Below the pieces are notes generated by a model. It saw nothing but the letters and a program-made list of their open reading frames with translations. It was not told the origin of the DNA and did not search any database. Position numbers and translations under genes: made by a program. Positions 1 through 10,000 of a stretch of 10,000 bases of DNA are shown here, one piece after another. The DNA comes from Magnetospirillum sp. (GTDB taxonomy: Bacteria > Pseudomonadota > Alphaproteobacteria > Rhodospirillales > Magnetospirillaceae), in contig JAIWOG010000329.1 of the NCBI GenBank assembly GCA_020217035.1, positions 1 through 10,000 of the forward strand, read 5' to 3'. The first letter of the stretch is position 1; each line of letters starts with the position of its first letter.

Positions 1-1517
<1,517 letters not shown>

Positions 1518-1526
1518 GAAAAAAAA

Positions 1527-1531
1527 CCTCC
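1527..1531 (-). promoter_or_regulatory. Ribosome binding site of ettA
   Basis: On the minus strand a perfect GGAGG lies 9 nt (CT-free run of mostly T) before the ATG whose A is at 1517. It decides the start codon for ettA. Confidence 0.8.
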
Positions 1532-1562
1532 GGCACGGGCGAATTTAAAACGGTTGCAAGGG

Positions 1563-1591
1563 GTTTAGACGGGGCAGCGCTGTTTCGTCAA
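1563..1591 (-). promoter_or_regulatory. Candidate promoter of ettA
   Basis: In the 90-base gap between the large accessory gene and ettA, the minus strand carries TTGACG (1591-1586), then 17 nt, then CTAAAC (1568-1563). The -35 matches TTGACA at 5 of 6 positions; the -10 is weak, as is common in alphaproteobacteria. This would give a 5' leader of about 40 nt and let ettA be transcribed independently of the upstream block. I saw no terminator between the large gene and ettA, so read-through from upstream is also possible. Confidence 0.4.
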
Positions 1592-1607
1592 CGGTTTGCT
1601 GAACCTG

Positions 1608-4600
1608 TCAGGCCGAGACTTGGCAGCTATCCGCACAAGGACATGACCAGATGGGGGGCGCTCCTGGGTTCAGATCCACTCGCCGGGCAATGATGGTAAG
1701 AACTTCGTCAGCATCAGACAGGTTGTCGTAAATATTATTCTTGCTATCCTTTTGGTGGATTCCCACAAGTTTCGGACAGTAGAAGTGAATGGTGAAGTCT
1801 GTTCGTCCTGGTGTCCGGGTCAGTGTCATGCCGTTCCCGTTGCAATTTATGGCTTTCATATAGTTTTTTATTTTCTCGATAAAACGCTTGTTCGGTGCGG
1901 TTACGCCATTATTGCATTTCTTGTTGTCGTAAGAGTGCCCTGCATTTCCTTTTACTTTTACTCTGGTTACCAGCGTGTAGGGCCATTCCTCTCCTTCCTT
2001 TAGTGCCAGTCCCTGCTTGATAGCGGCTTGAAGGCAGGGGGCCGCAAGGATCATTTCGGTTTGATCGACCAGGAAGTCTTCATATATGGCACTTTGCAGG
2101 CGGAAAATATTGTCCAGGCGTTTGTTGGCGTCGCCATTGAACACGATCACCACATCTCCCCAGCCTTCCGAAAGTAGGACGTGATCCTGGTCAGTCAATA
2201 AGTTGCCGACATGATGCCATTCGAGCATTTCATCATCAGGGGTGTCTTGTTGTCTGTTCTTGTAAAGGGTGGTTAGGCGGTAAATGAAATCAAGGCGTGA
2301 GGCCCGCGAGCCAAGAGTGACGCAAAGAAACGCAATCGGTCCATTTTCCAGGACTTTCATGTTTTGGTTGCTGGTCGATAATGAGGGCAAGGAGGTTTCA
2401 AAGTTCAATCGGACCGGAACGGCCATTTCGTGGCGTTCAAAAAAGACCGCGCCACTGTCCGTGGATGGGGATCCGACGCTTTTTAGTTGCGGGAGGAACG
2501 ATCGGGATGGTGGTTCATTCACGGTCAGGCCGATGACGTCGTAACGACCTAAGACCTTGGTGTAAACCCGGCCGGCGTTGTCGTGGCCGAGAGGGAGTTT
2601 CTGCCACAGGCTTTCCCAGTTCAGCTTGTTGAGCGTCTCATCAGAAATGATGACTCGGTCCAGCATCACCAAAGGAGACACTTCGTCGTTCTTGCCCTGC
2701 CTTTTATTGGTCAAGGCAGCAAGAAGCTGACCGCGGACCGAAGGGGTCCGGCAAAGAGATTGCAGATATATCCTTAATGTCAGCAATCGTGGTGCGGCAT
2801 TCAGGTCGGCGCGGTCAAGGGCGGCGTGCAGTTGCTCGATCTTGACCAGATAGAAATGCGCGATAACCCTTGCGAAGATCGCCTTTTGGGAAAGTGACAG
2901 TCCAGAATAGCTGTCCCGTTTGGGAGGGGCGAGTAGTCGTATGAAGAACCTGGGGTTTACCTTTGAAATTTTGTCGGTGAGGCTTTTTTCGAATGCCCAA
3001 AACTCCAGTTTGACGTCCTTGGCCATTCGGACCGCGCTGTCCACAAGATCGTCCCAAAGATTTTCCTGCGCTTCGGTCGCTGCGTCGTCGGGTCGGATCC
3101 ATTGCTGCAACAGGGGGTGTGTCACCGTGTCTAGATTGCCGATTTCGGCGCTGACTTTTTCGTGTTGCAGATATCCGATAATACCCCGGCCAGAGTCGAT
3201 GGACGAATTGTGCAGCCAATAGGCCAATTCCAGCGCGATTTGATAAAGGTGCCGGCCCGGTGCTCCATCCAGATGCATTTCCTGAAGCCAGGCTTGGGTG
3301 TTGCGGACGCAGCCATCGGGATGCATGAAGTCGCGAGCACGCAGCATCGCGCTTTGCCAGGGGATGTCATACAGATATCGGAAGAGATGGTGGTCGTAGT
3401 ACTCGTTTCCATCAAAGTATTTTTCGCAGAAGCGGCTGTTAATTATCTCGTTCTTGTCGGCATCACTCGCATTTAGTGATGCGACTTCCTTGCTGATTTT
3501 ATGAAGAAGTCTGCCCTCTCTTTGCTTCAATTGCTTGAGCATGTCCAAGAGTTTTTGGCTGAACTCGGGGGGGAGCTGCCGGGCGGAGTCTGGAAAAGCG
3601 GCGGATACGAAGGGGGCGTTATTCGCTTCTCCGTTAGCGAAATCCTCGCGTTTCTGGCGCCAAGCCTGCGCGGTGGTGATCAGGTCCGAGCGCTTGATTA
3701 ATCCAGTCAGGGTCGAACTGAGGCCGCGCCACTTGGTGATTTCTTGGGCCAAGGGCGCCTGCGACAGGGCTTCAACCGTTTTCAACAGGTTTTCCGAGAC
3801 ATCCTTGACCCCGTCAAGCATTCGATGGGCCAGAACATCGGTCGGCGGCGTGAGCTCTTCCAAAATAGTGCAGCAGATGGACAGGCGCAAAAACCATTCG
3901 AAGCCGGGGACCTGCATGGTGACCCAGCCGCCTTCTAGAATGTGGTCGGTCAGGTTGAAGTCGATGCGCCGCAAAGGCGACGAAAACATCAAATCCAGAT
4001 CCACCCCTAGAATTTCCTGGGTCAATGCGAACAGATAGGCCGGTCCCTTGACGATAGTGGCGATGATGTCGCAGGCGATTTCGCGGTGAATGGACCGCAA
4101 TTCGTAACGGGGGTTGTTTTCTCCCAGATTCGTGAGGCCGTATTCCTGCAGGCCGGCGGAAACCAGGCGCAGCAATTTGGCCAGGGAACCATCGATCTTG
4201 CGCAACTTGTGCGGCTCCAGGTCCCCCAAACCGTGCAGGATGGCGGCATGGGACGCTTCGTGGGCGATCACGCTTTGCAGATCGGGGCGGTCCGGCATGA
4301 AGAACGAGGTGTTGAACAAGTCGATGGAATGGGCTTCGGCCTCTCGACCGTAATCCATCGAACTGTGGATGAATGAAATGTCCGAAGCTGCTGAATGGTT
4401 CCAGCGGTGCATATAGATGGCGCCGTGGGTTTCCTGATTGAACGGACGCTCGGCGCTGCCGAGGGACGAATACAGAAAGTTCTCGATCAATTCGCGCAGG
4501 TCGTTGCAGCGCTCGGACAGGTAGGACGAATAAATGCCTTGTTCTCGACGCCGTCCGATCAGTGGCTTCGGGTGGTCCTGAATGCCCAAGTCCAAGGCTG

Positions 4601-5234
4601 CCTCGAACTGGGCGCGCAAATCACCCAGGCGCTGAATGTGTTCGTGGGCAGCCTTCATCACCGCGGCCCGCACGATCAGGAAACGGCCAACCATCGAAGG
4701 CCGTTCGATCTGGCGAATGGCCCGGATGCCCCAGCGACACAGGGTCAGTTTGTGATAGACGATGTTGATCTTCAGGGTTTGCAGTGCCCGCAGCGCGTGA
4801 TACAGGCGGCGCTTGTCCGATGGCCAATGGCCGTTTTCCAGCGCCGACCACAACGTGCGCCGCAACCGGAATTCCACGACCCGGCGTTTTCGGGCGTTCC
4901 AGTCCGGCACGTCTTTGGGCATCTTTTCCCGGGTGGGCTTACTCGATGGGATATCGGGAAACGAGATGACCCACTTGGCGGCAATGTCGCTGAGATCGCT
5001 TTGCGTTTTTGGTTCGTTCAGAAAGCTTAGCCACGAGGTGCCTCCCGTTCCCGGCGGCCCGCCCCAAATATACTCCTCCTCGTACCGCAAGGCTTCGTAG
5101 AGCGTCGGACTGCGCAGGGCATGGATCAGGTTGACCTGATGGTGGCGCAATTCCAGCAAGATGGTGTCCAGGCGCTCCAGCGTGTCCAGCCACATAAGCC
5201 AAGTGATGTCATAGCCTTGAGGCGAGACGGTCAT
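1608..5234 (-). CDS. Large putative zinc metallopeptidase (HExxH, gluzincin-like), 1208 aa, family not recognised
   Basis: I do not recognise a named family. Seen: residues 1-320 are mostly helical, with a basic stretch (RKRRVVEFRLRR). HEASH is at 325-329, in the context VIAHEASHAAILHGLG. A second helix, HREIACDIIATIVKGPAY, places E385 56 residues after the second His, followed by D389 and GPAY (397-400). HExxH plus a distant E-x-x-x-D helix is the usual zinc-ligand layout of gluzincin-type peptidases, so peptidase activity is a reasonable inference. The middle is long and helical with no recognised motif. The last ~240 residues look like two alternating alpha/beta units, and the protein ends in a CPCADSC cysteine cluster. 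No signal peptide or clear membrane segment is seen. The ATG at 5234 overlaps the upstream membrane-protein stop as ATGA and has GGAGA 7 nt ahead (5246-5242). The frame stays open further upstream to 5636, but only inside the neighbouring gene. GC falls to about 40% near the 3' end, unlike the flanks. Confidence 0.85.
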   Translation of the reverse strand: MTVSPQGYDITWLMWLDTLERLDTILLELRHHQVNLIHALRSPTLYEALRYEEEYIWGGPPGTGGTSWLSFLNEPKTQSDLSDIAAKWVISFPDIPSSKPTREKMPKDVPDWNARKRRVVEFRLRRTLWSALENGHWPSDKRRLYHALRALQTLKINIVYHKLTLCRWGIRAIRQIERPSMVGRFLIVRAAVMKAAHEHIQRLGDLRAQFEAALDLGIQDHPKPLIGRRREQGIYSSYLSERCNDLRELIENFLYSSLGSAERPFNQETHGAIYMHRWNHSAASDISFIHSSMDYGREAEAHSIDLFNTSFFMPDRPDLQSVIAHEASHAAILHGLGDLEPHKLRKIDGSLAKLLRLVSAGLQEYGLTNLGENNPRYELRSIHREIACDIIATIVKGPAYLFALTQEILGVDLDLMFSSPLRRIDFNLTDHILEGGWVTMQVPGFEWFLRLSICCTILEELTPPTDVLAHRMLDGVKDVSENLLKTVEALSQAPLAQEITKWRGLSSTLTGLIKRSDLITTAQAWRQKREDFANGEANNAPFVSAAFPDSARQLPPEFSQKLLDMLKQLKQREGRLLHKISKEVASLNASDADKNEIINSRFCEKYFDGNEYYDHHLFRYLYDIPWQSAMLRARDFMHPDGCVRNTQAWLQEMHLDGAPGRHLYQIALELAYWLHNSSIDSGRGIIGYLQHEKVSAEIGNLDTVTHPLLQQWIRPDDAATEAQENLWDDLVDSAVRMAKDVKLEFWAFEKSLTDKISKVNPRFFIRLLAPPKRDSYSGLSLSQKAIFARVIAHFYLVKIEQLHAALDRADLNAAPRLLTLRIYLQSLCRTPSVRGQLLAALTNKRQGKNDEVSPLVMLDRVIISDETLNKLNWESLWQKLPLGHDNAGRVYTKVLGRYDVIGLTVNEPPSRSFLPQLKSVGSPSTDSGAVFFERHEMAVPVRLNFETSLPSLSTSNQNMKVLENGPIAFLCVTLGSRASRLDFIYRLTTLYKNRQQDTPDDEMLEWHHVGNLLTDQDHVLLSEGWGDVVIVFNGDANKRLDNIFRLQSAIYEDFLVDQTEMILAAPCLQAAIKQGLALKEGEEWPYTLVTRVKVKGNAGHSYDNKKCNNGVTAPNKRFIEKIKNYMKAINCNGNGMTLTRTPGRTDFTIHFYCPKLVGIHQKDSKNNIYDNLSDADEVLTIIARRVDLNPGAPPIWSCPCADSCQVSA
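5231..5234 (-). promoter_or_regulatory. ATGA stop/start overlap coupling the membrane protein to the large gene
   Basis: The minus strand reads ATGA across these four bases: ATG opens the 1208-aa gene and TGA closes the membrane-protein gene. GGAGA lies 7 nt upstream of the ATG. This arrangement normally signals translational coupling and near-stoichiometric production of the two proteins. Confidence 0.85.
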
Positions 5235-6400
5235 TGTGGTTTCTCCGGGCATTGGGGGGCGTGTGATCCTTCCGCGATGGTGACGGGATAGGGGCACATG
5301 GAATTGTCGTGAGGTAGGTCTTGCAGCGCCGCAAGCGCCAAGCCCAGTCCGATGGCTGGCAGGGTGCCGCCAAGCAGTTGGATCCAACGTTCGCGAATGA
5401 TCCAGTAATCGGATGCACGCCGGGCTTGATCCCAAAGCGGCGGAATGGGAAGGGCGCGAAGGTGGATGGGGCGGTGAAAGCGCTGTTTGGCGCCATAGCG
5501 ATAGACCGCCCACAGCAAGAAAATGATGGCCATTGCCGTCCAGGCAAAGCACAAAAGCGTTCGCCCTGGGCCAGGGGTTCGGAAAATGCTGATGGTCACA
5601 ATCAGCCAGATGAAGCTGGTCCAGATCGATGAGCAATAAGTGATCAGGAACCGGAAGGTGGCGCGGCTGGTATCTTGCCAGTCATTGGGGGCTGCAGAAA
5701 AATACTGCGCCATAGCAAGGTACAGCAGGCCGGTGCTGCCGCTGCTGACCGGCTGCCAAACCACCGGGTCGGAATTGGTGGGGAATTGCATGAACCTAGC
5801 TTGGGACTTCACCAATTCACACGCCAGTCGCCAGATGCGGCGCGGAGCCGATCCCGTTTCGTGGACCTCGGTATAGATGATTTTGCTGGGCAGGCCCAAA
5901 AACCAGTCGCGATAGGCGTAGGGAAGTGGCGCATGCAGGGTCTCAAGCGTTTTTGGGCGCAAAACAAGTGTGTAAAGGGCAATGGGTATGACGAACCATA
6001 GGGCCAGCAGCGAAATGGCCCACCACCACTGTGCCACCCATCCTAGTTGTTGATGCATCCAGGCATAAGACGTCACAGTCTTGGTCAGGTTGATGGGCGT
6101 CAGGAAGAAAAAGCCATAGAGGGCGAACAGGCAGGCAAAGGCGAAGTCAAAAAGTTTCAGCATCTCAGGCATCAGCCGGAATTCCGCCTGGGACAGCCAT
6201 AGGGTCGGCGGGGGCGGGGCGTTGGTCACCGACTGGTCACCCTGATGGTCGTGGGGTTTTGGGGCCTTTTTCTCTTCTGGTATTAGCATCCACACGGCAT
6301 AAGGGTGTCGTAATGGAGCCCAGCCTGCCCGCAAGGAGTGTATGATGGTTCGCGCATCAAGGGCTTTGATGGTGGAGTAGGCAAGCTTTAGGCATTTCAT
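5231..6400 (-). CDS. Five-TM integral membrane protein of unknown family, partner of the downstream metallopeptidase-like gene
   Basis: This is a 389-aa protein with no recognised family. Seen: a ~75-residue N-terminal region without a signal peptide, including a Pro/Lys/His-rich segment (about 41-66). Hydrophobic segments lie at about 82-100, 122-147, 251-273, 281-301 and 338-359. A ~100-residue soluble loop (about 148-250) separates TM2 and TM3, and a basic loop (302-337) separates TM4 and TM5. A short Cys-containing tail ends in PQCPEKPQ. An odd number of membrane segments puts the two ends on opposite sides; the positive-inside rule would favour a cytoplasmic N-terminus and TM4-TM5 loop, which is inference. 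The stop codon overlaps the start of the 1208-aa gene by ATGA, implying translational coupling and probably a shared complex at the membrane. The ATG at 6400 has only a weak Shine-Dalgarno (AAGG, 6-nt spacing). Residue 38 (Met) is a less likely alternative start. Confidence 0.85.
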   Translation of the reverse strand: MKCLKLAYSTIKALDARTIIHSLRAGWAPLRHPYAVWMLIPEEKKAPKPHDHQGDQSVTNAPPPPTLWLSQAEFRLMPEMLKLFDFAFACLFALYGFFFLTPINLTKTVTSYAWMHQQLGWVAQWWWAISLLALWFVIPIALYTLVLRPKTLETLHAPLPYAYRDWFLGLPSKIIYTEVHETGSAPRRIWRLACELVKSQARFMQFPTNSDPVVWQPVSSGSTGLLYLAMAQYFSAAPNDWQDTSRATFRFLITYCSSIWTSFIWLIVTISIFRTPGPGRTLLCFAWTAMAIIFLLWAVYRYGAKQRFHRPIHLRALPIPPLWDQARRASDYWIIRERWIQLLGGTLPAIGLGLALAALQDLPHDNSMCPYPVTIAEGSHAPQCPEKPQ

Positions 6401-6434
6401 TTGTCGCCTTGTCCCGCATAAAGGGTTGATGGGC

Positions 6435-6478
6435 GCAAAAATAGCCGCGATCCCTTAGGGATGCGCGGCTATTTTTGC
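6435..6478 (-). terminator. Strong bidirectional hairpin / intrinsic terminator between the coiled-coil gene and the membrane-protein gene
   Basis: Arms 6435-6449 and 6464-6478 are perfect 15-bp complements. An inner 5-bp stem (ATCCC/GGGAT) continues across a single-base bulge at 6463 and closes on a 3-nt loop. The outer part is A/T-rich (AAAAATA paired with TATTTTT), so each strand ends with a U-run inside the stem's descending arm. It starts 5 bases after the TAA of the coiled-coil gene (6483) and ends 34 bases before the ATG of the membrane-protein gene. It could therefore act as a terminator, a partial attenuator or a 3'-end processing and stability element. Confidence 0.75.
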
Positions 6479-6482
6479 AGCT

Positions 6483-6959
6483 TTATTGGAAGTTGCGGGT
6501 CAGGTGTAGTGAATTGGCGTGGGCCGACGCGGCCTTTTGTTCAATGCTATAGGATTGCGATGCGATGCCGGACCTCGTCGCACCCAAGTGCTCCCCCGCA
6601 CTTTGGCGCAGCCGTAGGATTTCCAGATCTTCGGCGATGCGGTCGTTCTTACGGCGTTCATCGCGCAATGTCGCTTCGATATTCGCTAGGCTCACATTGG
6701 TTTCGCGGGCGCGTCGCTGCTCATATCCAATGTTGCTGGTGAGCTGGGCGTGAGTGCGTTGGGACGATTCTTCGATTTGCAAGAGTCGATCCTCGACTCG
6801 GGCCTGCTGATCACGGATATCCATCAACACGGCTAACATTTCTTGCAGCAGGGCTGGTATGGGCGTGGAGGCATCCATTGAGCCGTTATCCGGAGGTACG
6901 GCATCATCCTCGGCCACCACTTCCTGTGTGGTGTTCTTATCGCTCTTCGCATTAGGCAT
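6483..6959 (-). CDS. Small soluble coiled-coil protein of unknown function (158 aa)
   Basis: I do not recognise a family. Seen: residues 1-35 are polar and acidic (QEVVAEDDAVPPDNGS) and probably disordered. About residues 37-120 form a highly charged heptad-like helix (LLQEMLAVLMDIRDQQARVEDRLLQIEE... IEATLRDERRKNDRIAEDLEILRLRQ), a likely coiled coil for oligomerisation or partner binding. The last ~40 residues are polar, Ser/Ala-rich and without motif. There is no membrane segment, signal peptide or Cys. I chose the ATG at 6959; a purine-rich GGGGGAGGGG (6981-6972) lies upstream, though GGAGG is 14 nt away, which is long. A TTG at 6983 in frame would add 8 residues (MGEGKPAK) but has poor upstream spacing. 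It is first in the minus-strand block, behind a good sigma70-like promoter, and is followed by a hairpin that may limit transcription into the two large genes. It may be a regulatory or adaptor subunit of the cassette; that is inference. Confidence 0.75.
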   Translation of the reverse strand: MPNAKSDKNTTQEVVAEDDAVPPDNGSMDASTPIPALLQEMLAVLMDIRDQQARVEDRLLQIEESSQRTHAQLTSNIGYEQRRARETNVSLANIEATLRDERRKNDRIAEDLEILRLRQSAGEHLGATRSGIASQSYSIEQKAASAHANSLHLTRNFQ

Positions 6960-7011
6960 CTTTGCGGGCTTCCCCTCCCCCAATCCGTCCCAAGTACGGG
7001 TGGGGTGTTGT

Positions 7012-7039
7012 TTGACGGCTCTTCAAGAAGGGGTATTTT
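7012..7039 (+). promoter_or_regulatory. Candidate divergent promoter toward the small ORF and EF-G-like gene
   Basis: On the plus strand TTGACG (7012-7017), 16 nt, then TATTTT (7034-7039). The -35 matches 5 of 6 and the -10 matches 4 of 6. Its -10 overlaps the -10 of the opposing promoter almost completely, so the two would compete for polymerase. Predicted start near 7046. Confidence 0.4.
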
Positions 7040-7046
7040 ACACCCC
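7030..7046. promoter_or_regulatory. Candidate operator palindrome spanning both -10 boxes
   Basis: GGGGT (7030-7034) and ACCCC (7042-7046) form a perfect inverted repeat with an A/T-rich 7-base centre that contains both -10 elements. A repressor dimer bound here would block both promoters. No regulator gene is recognisable in the window. The repeat is short, so chance is possible. Confidence 0.4.
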
Positions 7047-7063
7047 GGTACAGATTAAATCAA
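7035..7063 (-). promoter_or_regulatory. Sigma70-like promoter of the accessory block
   Basis: On the minus strand TTGATT (7063-7058), exactly 17 nt, then TAAAAT (7040-7035). The -10 matches TATAAT at 5 of 6 positions and the -35 matches at 4 of 6. Predicted transcription start is near 7028, giving a ~70-nt leader for the coiled-coil gene. This is the best promoter match in the window. Confidence 0.6.
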
Positions 7064-7083
7064 TAAAGTCAAGAGGAAGCTTG

Positions 7084-7179
7084 ATGTTGCAGCGATTATT
7101 CCTGCGGCGCTTACTCATGGTTGTACTTGTGTCTATGCGCGCGACTCTAGGAGCTGAATTTATGGGAAGTCAAGAATAA
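7084..7179 (+). CDS. Possible 31-aa hydrophobic small protein
   Basis: ATG at 7084 is preceded by AGAGGA with about 6-nt spacing, a strong Shine-Dalgarno, and runs 31 codons to TAA. The peptide begins MLQRLFLRRLLMVVLVS: a basic start followed by a hydrophobic core, then MRATLGAEFMGSQE. It resembles a tiny membrane protein or a signal-peptide-like fragment, possibly the remnant of a truncated secreted-protein gene. It lies downstream of the candidate plus-strand promoter and 100 bases ahead of the EF-G-like gene, so it could also act as an upstream ORF. Short length means chance cannot be excluded. Confidence 0.35.
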   Translation: MLQRLFLRRLLMVVLVSMRATLGAEFMGSQE

Positions 7180-7208
7180 AGTGTGTTCCCAGCCCTGCGT
7201 CCAAAGCC

Positions 7209-7231
7209 CCTTGCCAGCCTGCCTGGCAAGG
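7209..7231 (+). promoter_or_regulatory. Perfect 9-bp hairpin in the leader of the EF-G-like gene
   Basis: CCTTGCCAG (7209-7217) and CTGGCAAGG (7223-7231) are perfect complements around a CCTGC loop. It sits between the small ORF stop and the ATG at 7280. No T-run follows, so it is not a standard intrinsic terminator; it may be an mRNA structure, a protein-binding site or coincidental. Confidence 0.35.
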
Positions 7232-7267
7232 TGGACCATCTTTCGGACTAAAGGACAAACCGCCTGG

Positions 7268-7273
7268 GAGGGC
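7268..7273 (+). promoter_or_regulatory. Ribosome binding site of the EF-G-like gene
   Basis: A purine-rich GGAGGG lies about 7 nt ahead of ATG 7280 and fixes the start of the EF-G-like protein, so that the P-loop begins about 15 residues in, as in EF-G. Confidence 0.7.
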
Positions 7274-7279
7274 CCGAAC

Positions 7280-9313
7280 ATGACCGGCAAGACAGTTTCG
7301 CTTCCGCGCGCCGCCGCCCTGGTGGGGCCGTTTTCCAGCGGCAAGACCAGCCTGCTGGAGGCCCTGCTGTTTCGCGCGGAAGCCATTCCCCGGCAAGGCC
7401 GCATCAAGGACGGCAACACTGTGGGCGATTCCAGCGCCGAGGCCCGCGCCCGGCTGATGAGTGTCGAGCCCAACCTGGCCTGCGTCGAGTTCATGGGCGA
7501 GAAGTGGAGCTTCGTCGACTGCCCCGGCTCGGTGGAGTTCCAGCAGGATTCCTACAACGCGCTGTTGACGGTGGACGCCGCCATCGTGGTGTGCGAGCCC
7601 GATCCGGCCCGCGCCGTCATGGTGGCGCCGCTGTTGAAGTTCCTGGACACCCACAAGGTGCCGCATCTGCTGTTCGTCAACAAGATGGACGCCGGCGGCA
7701 TCCGGCTGAAGGAAACCCTGGAAGCGTTGCAGGCGGTGTCGGAACGCCCGCTGGTGCTGCGCGAGGTGCCGATCCGCGAAGGCGACAAGGTCACCGGCTA
7801 TGTCGATCTGGTCAGCGAGCGGGCCTACAAATACCGTCCCGGCCAGAAATCCGACCTGATCAAGATTCCCGATTCGGCCCGCGAGGAAGAACAAGCGGCG
7901 CGTCAGGAGATGCTGGAGCATCTGGCCGATTTCGACGACCACCTGATGGAAGAATTGCTGGAAGACGTGGCGCCGCCATCGGACGAGGTTTATGGCGACC
8001 TGGCCAAGGACTTGGCCGACGACTTGATCGTGCCGGTGTTCTTCGGCTCGGCCGAAAGCGACGGCGGCATCACCCGGCTGTGGAAGGCGCTGCGTCACGA
8101 GGTCCCCGAACCCACCACCACCGCCGCCCGTCTGGGCTTCGCCAATGGCGGGGCGCCGGTGGCGCGGGTGTTCAAGACCCAGCACGCCACCCATACCGGC
8201 AAGCTGTCGTGGTCCCGCGTGCTGCGCGGCGAGTTCGCCGACGCGCAACTTTTGGCCGGCGGCAAGGTCTCGGGCCTGTTCGTCCCCGGCTTGGGCAATC
8301 CGGCCAAGGTGGCCAAGGCGTCGTTGGGCGAGGTGGTCGCCTTCGGCAAGTTGGACAGCGCCGCCACCGGCATGGTGCTGGGCGGCGACGGCCAGACCGG
8401 CGGGGAATGGCCGGCGGCGATGGAGCCGTTGTTCGCCATGGCGCTGGAAGCGGAAAAGAAGGGCGACGACGTCAAGTTGTCGGGGGCGCTTACCAAACTG
8501 GTCGAGGAAGACCCGTCCTATCGACTGGAACAGAACGCCGAATTCGGCGAGACCGTGCTGTGGGGCCAGGGCGAAATCCACCTGATGGTGGCGTTCGAGC
8601 GGCTGAAAAGCCGCTTCGGCATGGGGGTCGTCACCCACAAGCCGACGGTGCCCTACAAGGAAACCATCAGGAAATCCACCTCCGTCCATGGGCGCCACAA
8701 GAAGCAATCGGGCGGCCACGGCCAGTTCGGCGACGTGCATCTGGAGATCAGGCCGCAGCCGCGCGGCGCCGGCTTCGTCTTCGAGGACAAGATCGTCGGC
8801 GGCGCGGTGCCGCGCAACTACATCCCGGCGGTGGAAGACGGGGTGGTCGAGTTCCTGAAGCAGGGGGCCTTGGGCTTCCCGGTGGTGGACGTCGCCGTCA
8901 TCCTGACCGACGGCAGCTATCACAGCGTCGATTCTTCGGACATGGCGTTCAAGACCGCCGCCCGCATCGCCATGGTGGAAGGTCTGCCGCAATGCGAATC
9001 GGTGCTGCTGGAACCGGTTCTGGCGGTGGACATCTCGGTGCCCGCCGACTTTACCTCCAAGGCCCAGCGCATCATCACCGGCCGTCGCGGCCAGATCCTG
9101 GGCTTCGACGCCAAGGACGGCTGGACCGGCTGGGACCAGGTGTCCGCCTATCTGCCGCAGGCGGAAATGGGTGACCTGATCGTCGAGTTGCGGTCGCTGA
9201 CCATGGGGGTGGGCACCTTCGCCTGGCGCTTCGACCATTTGCAGGAACTGAGCGGTCGCCCCGCCGACCAAGTGGTGGCGGCCCGCAAGGAAGCCCTGGC
9301 CAAGAAAGGCTGA
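7280..9313 (+). CDS. Elongation factor G-like GTPase (EF-G2-type), 677 aa
   Basis: This is a translational GTPase with full EF-G domain order. Canonical EF-G catalyses ribosomal translocation; EF-G2-like paralogues are less understood and usually not the main translocase. Seen: P-loop GPFSSGKTS (residues 16-24); the switch I region where EF-G has RGITI reads RLMSV; the G3 motif is DCPGS (80-84) instead of DTPGH, so the catalytic His is Ser84; NKMD (134-137) and GSA (256-258) are intact. Domain II and III sequence follows. Domain IV carries HKKQSGGHGQFGDVHLEI and DGSYHSVDSSDMAFKTAARIA. Domain V includes RRGQILGF and the LRSLTMGVGTFAWRFDHL end typical of EF-G. The length is slightly below the usual ~690-700 aa. 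The ATG at 7280 has GGAGGG 7 nt upstream. The frame is open further upstream to 7181 without a better start. GC is high, like the flanking genome, so it belongs to the host backbone. It could be named fusA2-like, but I give no symbol because the nomenclature is inconsistent. Confidence 0.93.
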   Translation: MTGKTVSLPRAAALVGPFSSGKTSLLEALLFRAEAIPRQGRIKDGNTVGDSSAEARARLMSVEPNLACVEFMGEKWSFVDCPGSVEFQQDSYNALLTVDAAIVVCEPDPARAVMVAPLLKFLDTHKVPHLLFVNKMDAGGIRLKETLEALQAVSERPLVLREVPIREGDKVTGYVDLVSERAYKYRPGQKSDLIKIPDSAREEEQAARQEMLEHLADFDDHLMEELLEDVAPPSDEVYGDLAKDLADDLIVPVFFGSAESDGGITRLWKALRHEVPEPTTTAARLGFANGGAPVARVFKTQHATHTGKLSWSRVLRGEFADAQLLAGGKVSGLFVPGLGNPAKVAKASLGEVVAFGKLDSAATGMVLGGDGQTGGEWPAAMEPLFAMALEAEKKGDDVKLSGALTKLVEEDPSYRLEQNAEFGETVLWGQGEIHLMVAFERLKSRFGMGVVTHKPTVPYKETIRKSTSVHGRHKKQSGGHGQFGDVHLEIRPQPRGAGFVFEDKIVGGAVPRNYIPAVEDGVVEFLKQGALGFPVVDVAVILTDGSYHSVDSSDMAFKTAARIAMVEGLPQCESVLLEPVLAVDISVPADFTSKAQRIITGRRGQILGFDAKDGWTGWDQVSAYLPQAEMGDLIVELRSLTMGVGTFAWRFDHLQELSGRPADQVVAARKEALAKKG

Positions 9314-9317
9314 GAAG

Positions 9318-9347
9318 AAAAGGCCGGGGACATTCCCCGGCCTTTTT
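9318..9347. terminator. Bidirectional rho-independent terminator between convergent genes
   Basis: Twelve-base arms AAAAGGCCGGGG (9318-9329) and CCCCGGCCTTTT (9335-9346) are perfect complements around an ACATT loop, followed by another T. Located 5 bases after the EF-G-like stop. Its right arm runs into the TAA (9348-9346) of the convergent gene, so it can serve both transcripts. Confidence 0.92.
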
Positions 9348-10000
9348 ACTTGCCGAACCCAGCCCGCACCAGCAGCACGTGGAAGTCGCGCAGCGCCTTT
9401 TGCGCCTTGGCGGCGTCGGTGATGCCCTCGATGAAATGGGCGTCGAAATTGGGTTGGCGCAGCAGGGCCAGGATGCGTTCACGGGCGCGGTTCATGGACT
9501 TGCCTTCCGGCAGCACCCCGGCGGCGCAGAACTGCACCAGCCTGACGGCTCGGTCACGCAAATGGCTGTCCTGGTGGTCCAGCTTCTCGATGATCTGTTC
9601 CTCGATCAGATAGCGTTCCAAGATGGCGTCGATATGGTTGCCCAGCTTTTCCTTCATGGCCTGGGGGAACGGGCTGCGCATGATCGCCCGATGGGCGGCG
9701 GTGGCGCGGATCATCTTGTCCTTGGGCGTCAGCCCGCGCTGGCACAGCCGCAGGATCGAGATGGTGCCCAAGATGCGCTGGAAATGACCCATGATGTCCT
9801 GGGTGTGTTCCGGGCCGATGGGGCTGGCCGCCAGGTCGCACAGATACATGGCGCCATAGGCCAGGTCGGGCATGACGTTGAAGCAATTGGCGATGGCGAT
9901 GGCGCGGCCCTTGGCGCCGCCTTCGTCCACCATGCGGGTGTAACGGGTGGTCAACGCCTCGGCGGTTTCAGGGCCGAACAGCGGCCCGTCGGGGCCCAGC
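9346..10000 (-). CDS. Unrecognised mainly helical protein, C-terminal 217 residues (5' end beyond window)
   Basis: The frame is open to the right edge, so the N-terminus lies outside; 217 complete codons are visible, ending at TAA 9348-9346. I do not recognise a family. Seen: no membrane segment, signal peptide or nucleotide-binding motif. The sequence is rich in amphipathic helices, for example GRAIAIANCFNVMPDLAYGAMYLCDLAASPIG, then HFQRILGTISILRLCQRGLTPKDKMIRATAAHRAIM, and a charged segment AILERYLIEEQIIEKLDHQD. It ends in ALRDFHVLLVRAGFGK. The repeated-helix look suggests a helical-bundle or repeat scaffold in the cytoplasm. An in-frame TTG at 9954 is not the start, since coding-like sequence (LGPDGPLFGPETAEA) continues upstream of it. 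High GC puts it with the backbone genome. It converges on the EF-G-like gene and shares its terminator; no functional link is implied. Confidence 0.8.
   Translation of the reverse strand, partial: LGPDGPLFGPETAEALTTRYTRMVDEGGAKGRAIAIANCFNVMPDLAYGAMYLCDLAASPIGPEHTQDIMGHFQRILGTISILRLCQRGLTPKDKMIRATAAHRAIMRSPFPQAMKEKLGNHIDAILERYLIEEQIIEKLDHQDSHLRDRAVRLVQFCAAGVLPEGKSMNRARERILALLRQPNFDAHFIEGITDAAKAQKALRDFHVLLVRAGFGK

Follow-up and report, generated by a model that had tools for sequence, protein, structure and literature searches.

Proteolytic defence of the Lit and gasdermin types joins a peptidase to a defensive or membrane outcome. In a 10,000-nucleotide stretch of Magnetospirillum sp. DNA (GCA_020217035.1, contig JAIWOG010000329.1, positions 1 to 10,000; hereafter the window), the gene for a giant HExxH protein adjoins that for a membrane protein, and a small coiled-coil gene precedes the pair. 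An earlier note had described three co-directional genes between two translation-factor genes, and all three indeed lie on the minus strand between EttA (867 bits; cut-off 807) and elongation factor G (EF-G; 1037 bits; cut-off 513). Gene 1 (6483..6959; ATG at 6959, stop at 6483) encodes a 158-aa coiled-coil protein, or a product 8 aa longer from an upstream TTG. Gene 2 (5231..6400) encodes a 389-aa membrane protein read as having five transmembrane (TM) segments, and gene 3 (1608..5234) encodes the 1208-aa giant; the two overlap by ATGA at 5234-5231, in keeping with the coupling that the note had proposed. The small gene had also been placed behind its own promoter, and a sigma-70-like site precedes it on the minus strand (7063-7035), matching 9 of 12 consensus positions; by such consensus matching alone, the window holds 3 sites on both strands versus 0.8 expected. 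Beyond the cassette, a 202-aa protein without an NCBIfam match is encoded at 9346-9954 on the minus strand; it also adjoins EF-G in 3 of 11 fetched genus regions, several of which end early.

Between genes 1 and 2 lies a hairpin with A and T runs (6481-6433, minus strand; -34.8 kcal/mol, z -7.0), a probable intrinsic terminator that the earlier note had missed and that is absent from the list given by a simple terminator scan of the window. Because this strong hairpin separates the coiled-coil gene from the membrane gene, the block probably comprises two transcription units. At the equivalent place in the diverged cassette of a genus mate (G009), a G/C hairpin unlike this one, and bearing an A/T run, can be made out by eye. 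The feature is not universal, since the gap between the small and membrane genes is just 18-53 bases in six other loci (L019, L022, L024, L027, L098 and L100).

The earlier note could assign none of the three proteins to a family, and our Pfam and NCBIfam searches agree, with no match at a cut-off for any of them. Searches against PADLOC and PHROGs gave weak matches only: in PADLOC-DB 2.0, neither the giant nor the membrane protein matched anything at E ≤ 1, and the small protein overlapped the coiled-coil stretch of JetD (E 0.0011, 16 bits), a match set aside with those to Rootletin, IpaH and DUF2806 as coiled-coil or sub-threshold. Profiles of the giant and membrane families found no PDB sequence at E ≤ 1, and open-licence titles and abstract openings, a scope that leaves subscription journals outside, held no description of the trio. 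AlphaFold2 modelled the giant (residues 1-1200) with pLDDT 85.8 and pTM 0.90, and the membrane protein with 73.5 and 0.73; in the latter model, helices were read as the five TM segments (81-100, 117-147, 241-255 plus 257-272, 277-315 and 337-360), with more helices outside them. At E ≤ 0.001, Foldseek matched the giant to no PDB or viral model and the membrane protein to no PDB entry, and a second structural look at the membrane protein gave matches at helical-bundle background; absent Foldseek matches do not show that the folds are new. In the predicted model, the C-terminal part of the giant (residues about 840-1200; 1635..2717, minus strand) appears to resemble dimeric alpha+beta barrels. 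No clear sequence link to AsnC/Lrp sensor domains emerged, the RAM sensor domain profiles reaching 26% with the last of three C-terminal blocks and 0.3% or less with the other two; the blocks themselves share no detectable sequence likeness (2% or less).

The cassette is a real conserved unit, rarely seen, in scattered bacteria. Among 5.8 billion proteins (7992 candidates scored), a search turned up 31 giants, counting that of the window; a profile search contributed 11 more, and two peptide patterns located at least 14 loci among 84,980 species genomes. Genome searches found the giant in 5 of 199 relatives of the window, 4 of them clear; G078, with a match of 105 residues at E 6.6e-4, was not counted as a relative. 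Elsewhere it occurs in 8 of 63, 8 of 210, 1 of 251 and 1 of 346 genomes in the orders of G208, G202, G207 and G209, respectively, rates that lean upward in that these four genomes were picked as gene carriers. It was not found in the plasmid, phage and viral-contig collections searched. The note had read the genes as a unit, as opposed to homologues living mostly apart or in housekeeping families, and for the pair this reading holds: among 22 fetched loci and the window, two (L020 and L082) end too close to the giant for a verdict, and in all 21 assessable loci the membrane gene adjoins the giant, 20 times upstream and once convergently (L027). Of the 20 membrane-gene matches outside the window, 12 had built the profile and 8 had not (E 9e-52 to 3e-12); the gene is broken or short in L022 and L099. 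Among 198 related genomes, the membrane-protein profile picks out precisely the four with a clear giant and gives nothing at E ≤ 0.001 in the 194 without one (for many of these, among the part of the first-look candidates that was scored). Homologues arranged alike recur in both alpha- and gammaproteobacteria, which is more than chance.

Individual loci depart from this layout. In Cocleimonas sp. (L027:9968-14923), the small and membrane genes do not precede the giant but converge on it, and in the tree this giant is sister to a clade lacking zinc ligands (see below) yet has its own intact. Seven giants (that of L026:9905-15445, and P0026, P0030, P0032, P0042, P0044 and P0047) are long, about 1850-1970 aa, and carry extra sequence; the three scanned (L026, P0026 and P0030) match no Pfam family at E ≤ 0.01. 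The Paramagnetospirillum caucaseum giant (L017) reads as two frames of 1034 and 213 aa. An apparent natural split in L098 (7541-13844) was dismissed, its 421-aa middle frame being a Mutator-family transposase.

How the cassette came to its site in the window can be read from the genus mate G012, where EttA (98.6% identical) and EF-G (94.1%) lie about 190 bases apart and the cassette is absent. The G012 intergenic stretch aligns to window positions 1457-1577 and 7197-7307, so that the window carries an insert, 1578-7196 (5619 bases), where G012 has 47 bases. In 800-base steps, G+C is 0.49-0.60 within the insert versus 0.62-0.67 outside. The genus mate G009 carries its diverged cassette at the same site, with a giant 44% identical. 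The cassette is not a fixed component of the EttA/EF-G locus: among 10 other genus members with the EF-G region fetched (G009 excluded), five lack it, with about 160-205 bases between the two genes; the gap is about 0.7 kb in two and about 1.9 kb in one, and the remaining two have no matching EttA within the fetched DNA; a further member (G003) gave no EF-G match. The best explanation is an accessory module which genomes acquire through insertion, and insertion is observed in the window's genus.

The HExxH motif of the window's giant reads H325-E-A-S-H329. The predicted zinc site spans 4068..4262 on the minus strand, with H325-E326-x-x-H329 at 4262-4248, E385 at 4082-4080 and the conserved D389 at 4070-4068 (coordinates from residue numbers and the 5234 start). 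In an alignment of 55 giants (one protein, P0024/L029, is present from two sources), H325, E326, H329 and E385 occur together in 38, the window's included. The other 17, hereafter zinc-dead, all lack H329, 15 lack E385 and 12 lack H325; P0046 and L081 keep E385 without both histidines, intermediate motif states such as HEIAD and HEVAN occur, and P317, D318 and D389 are kept in 17 of 17. On a FastTree phylogeny (midpoint root, topology read without support values), the zinc-dead giants form a clade with 14 members (Thiotrichales in those of known order), the pair P0021/P0022, and P0046, placing ligand loss in at least three lineages. Joint loss of ligands with intermediates is what decay of a true zinc site gives. 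Q232, S284 and Y235 were rejected as residues lost together with the site, since zinc-intact L027 has L at 232 and zinc-dead P0046 keeps all three; they are, at least partly, clade markers.

Similarity to M48 peptidases points the same way. An hhalign comparison of the peptidase block with an M48 alignment gave 87% over 44 columns (88% over 47 columns with zinc-intact members only), versus 0.4% or less for seven other blocks of the giant. E385 and D389 are conserved along with HExxH, the M48 third-ligand region being left unaligned by hhalign, and in the model H325/H329 and E385 sit on two helices, 322-336 and 379-396. At E ≤ 0.1, the M48 Pfam family (PF01435) matched 1 of 22 members (E 0.083) and the SprT-like family (PF10263) matched 4 of 22 (best 0.0014), the window's giant (P0001) being among neither. 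Thirty-one columns are at least 97% conserved in the zinc-intact set and 24 of them remain at or above 0.81 in the zinc-dead set; as the ligand columns partly define both sets, independent evidence comes from the joint loss and from the similarity to the M48 profile. From these, the HExxH is predicted to be, and likely is, a true zinc site, so the peptidase-like character that the earlier note gave the giant stands in that respect. Peptidase activity itself must be dispensable in places, since the zinc ligands are lost in one clade, which, where readable, has no small gene.

The small gene tends to go with an intact zinc site. Where upstream DNA is readable, 12 of 13 zinc-intact loci have a small same-strand coiled-coil gene there, against 0 of 5 zinc-dead loci (Fisher p 0.0007, kinship ignored); the five belong to one clade, so the absence counts as one evolutionary event. 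The zinc-intact exception, L099, has just a short piece of the membrane gene. In 7 zinc-dead genomes, the small-gene profile gave just weak matches (best E 1e-4, over positions 13-78 of the 123 in the model). When each small protein was left out in turn, 9 of 12 were refound below E 0.01 and the window's own was missed; with so weak a coil profile a diverged small gene could escape detection, and the window's small protein, grouped by position and coil with 11 other upstream small proteins, is linked to them by position, size and coiled coil. By eye, in several of these proteins a Gly/Pro-rich linker leads into a common tail, roughly TPTG..LVEP...W....PYRR, which is most evident in L019, L097, L098 and L100 and divergent in the window. 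The trio that the earlier note had treated as one unit holds for its giant and membrane members, and the small gene is found in 12 of 18 judgeable loci; we read the giant and membrane protein as the core, with the small protein going with an intact peptidase.

Our main reading, to which we give a probability of about 0.42, is of an accessory module in which the five-TM protein and the giant would form a membrane complex. The giant is predicted to hold a gluzincin-type zinc peptidase site inside its helical N-terminal half, and its terminal alpha/beta (dimeric alpha+beta-barrel-like) domains probably serve in assembly or sensing. The small coiled-coil protein, from its separately terminated gene, would be a partner dedicated to the peptidase, and its substrate or activator most likely. 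When a signal is met, possibly phage, a ligand or envelope stress, we infer that cleavage would change the state of the membrane protein, with a stress or defence purpose that is likewise conjectural.

The sparse distribution, the insertion at the window's site with G+C below that of its flanks, and the transposase-broken giant of L098 would also suit an anti-phage system of the abortive-infection type, in which infection would activate the giant to cut a host or phage protein or to open the membrane protein, and the cell would die or stall. The earlier note had raised a defence role, and two neighbourhoods weakly suggest one: a full-length Avs3a (L017:6276-12530, plus strand; NACHT, 2085 aa, 1341 bits) lies directly downstream of the P. 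caucaseum cassette, and IetA and IetS lie 2.6 kb from that of Rhodospirillaceae bacterium UBA6219 (L016), with a 679-aa frame between. The latter locus (L016:16222-23633), with IetA/IetS and a DUF499 protein, looks like a defence island. These come from a scan of 112 frames within 8 kb, each 200 aa or longer, at 18 loci, which left out 11 housekeeping-looking frames of L018 and L098 and treated one NACHT protein separately; 42 PADLOC families matched neighbours at E ≤ 1e-10, 25 of the 42 being listed (mad2 and PDC-M72A among them), and the hits traced to a locus also include an SNF2 helicase (L028) and a generic ATPase match (L023). However, a named whole system lies close by in just 2 of the 18 loci, a raw count with no background comparison from which we claim no enrichment of defence genes, and L018 adjoins ftsZ and L098 the 3' end of glmS, a site known to attract insertions. 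With the giant and membrane protein also lacking a PADLOC model match, and the giant not found in the phage, plasmid and viral-contig collections searched, we consider this alternative unlikely.

Less probable again is an envelope- or metabolite-stress module, whose alpha/beta domains would sense a ligand while the complex adjusts a membrane process and the zinc site is regulatory and dispensable. Since one clade retains the giant and membrane protein despite loss of the zinc ligands and, where readable, of the small gene, the pair must be of use by itself, and the barrel-like C-terminal part might serve as a sensor; yet its best sequence link to AsnC/Lrp sensor domains is that 26% for one block, and the sparse distribution fits an optional function. 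A shared tail on a small protein encoded beside a peptidase-like and a membrane protein could even suggest peptide maturation and export, the giant cutting a small precursor that the membrane protein moves. This is very improbable, given a membrane protein without a Pfam, NCBIfam or Foldseek match at the thresholds above and a pair that persists without the small gene in five loci.

Under the main reading of an accessory peptidase-membrane module, three orphan families gain a shared identity and a testable logic, and the natural zinc-site 'knock-outs' allow an intact-versus-dead comparison that separates the peptidase role from that of the membrane pair. If the module is immune, a proteolytic membrane system is missing from the defence profile library searched; if not, a peptidase has repeatedly turned non-catalytic within one gene-pair family. 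A bolder proposal, no more probable than the anti-phage one, is that this would be a previously undescribed membrane-tethered proteolytic switch, immune or stress-related, whose giant zincin would act on the cassette's own small coiled-coil protein. Such a switch would more than once have produced catalytically dead versions of the giant, and at least one of these lineages would also have shed the partner while keeping the membrane arm.

Among described systems, the likeness to Lit-type and gasdermin-type defence is one of idea only, and Avs3a and IetAS are neighbours of the cassette, not relatives. Dimeric alpha+beta-barrel proteins, such as those with chlorite-dismutase and monooxygenase-like folds, may come close to the C-terminal part of the giant in the model. 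M48 gluzincins differ in that the window's giant does not match their family at E ≤ 0.1 and embeds its site in a 1200-aa protein; with them, and with SprT-like gluzincins, it shares an HExxH in a helix followed, as a possible third-ligand motif, by a glutamate and, four residues on, an aspartate (E385...D389), and other members of the giant family touch the M48 and SprT-like families weakly in Pfam.
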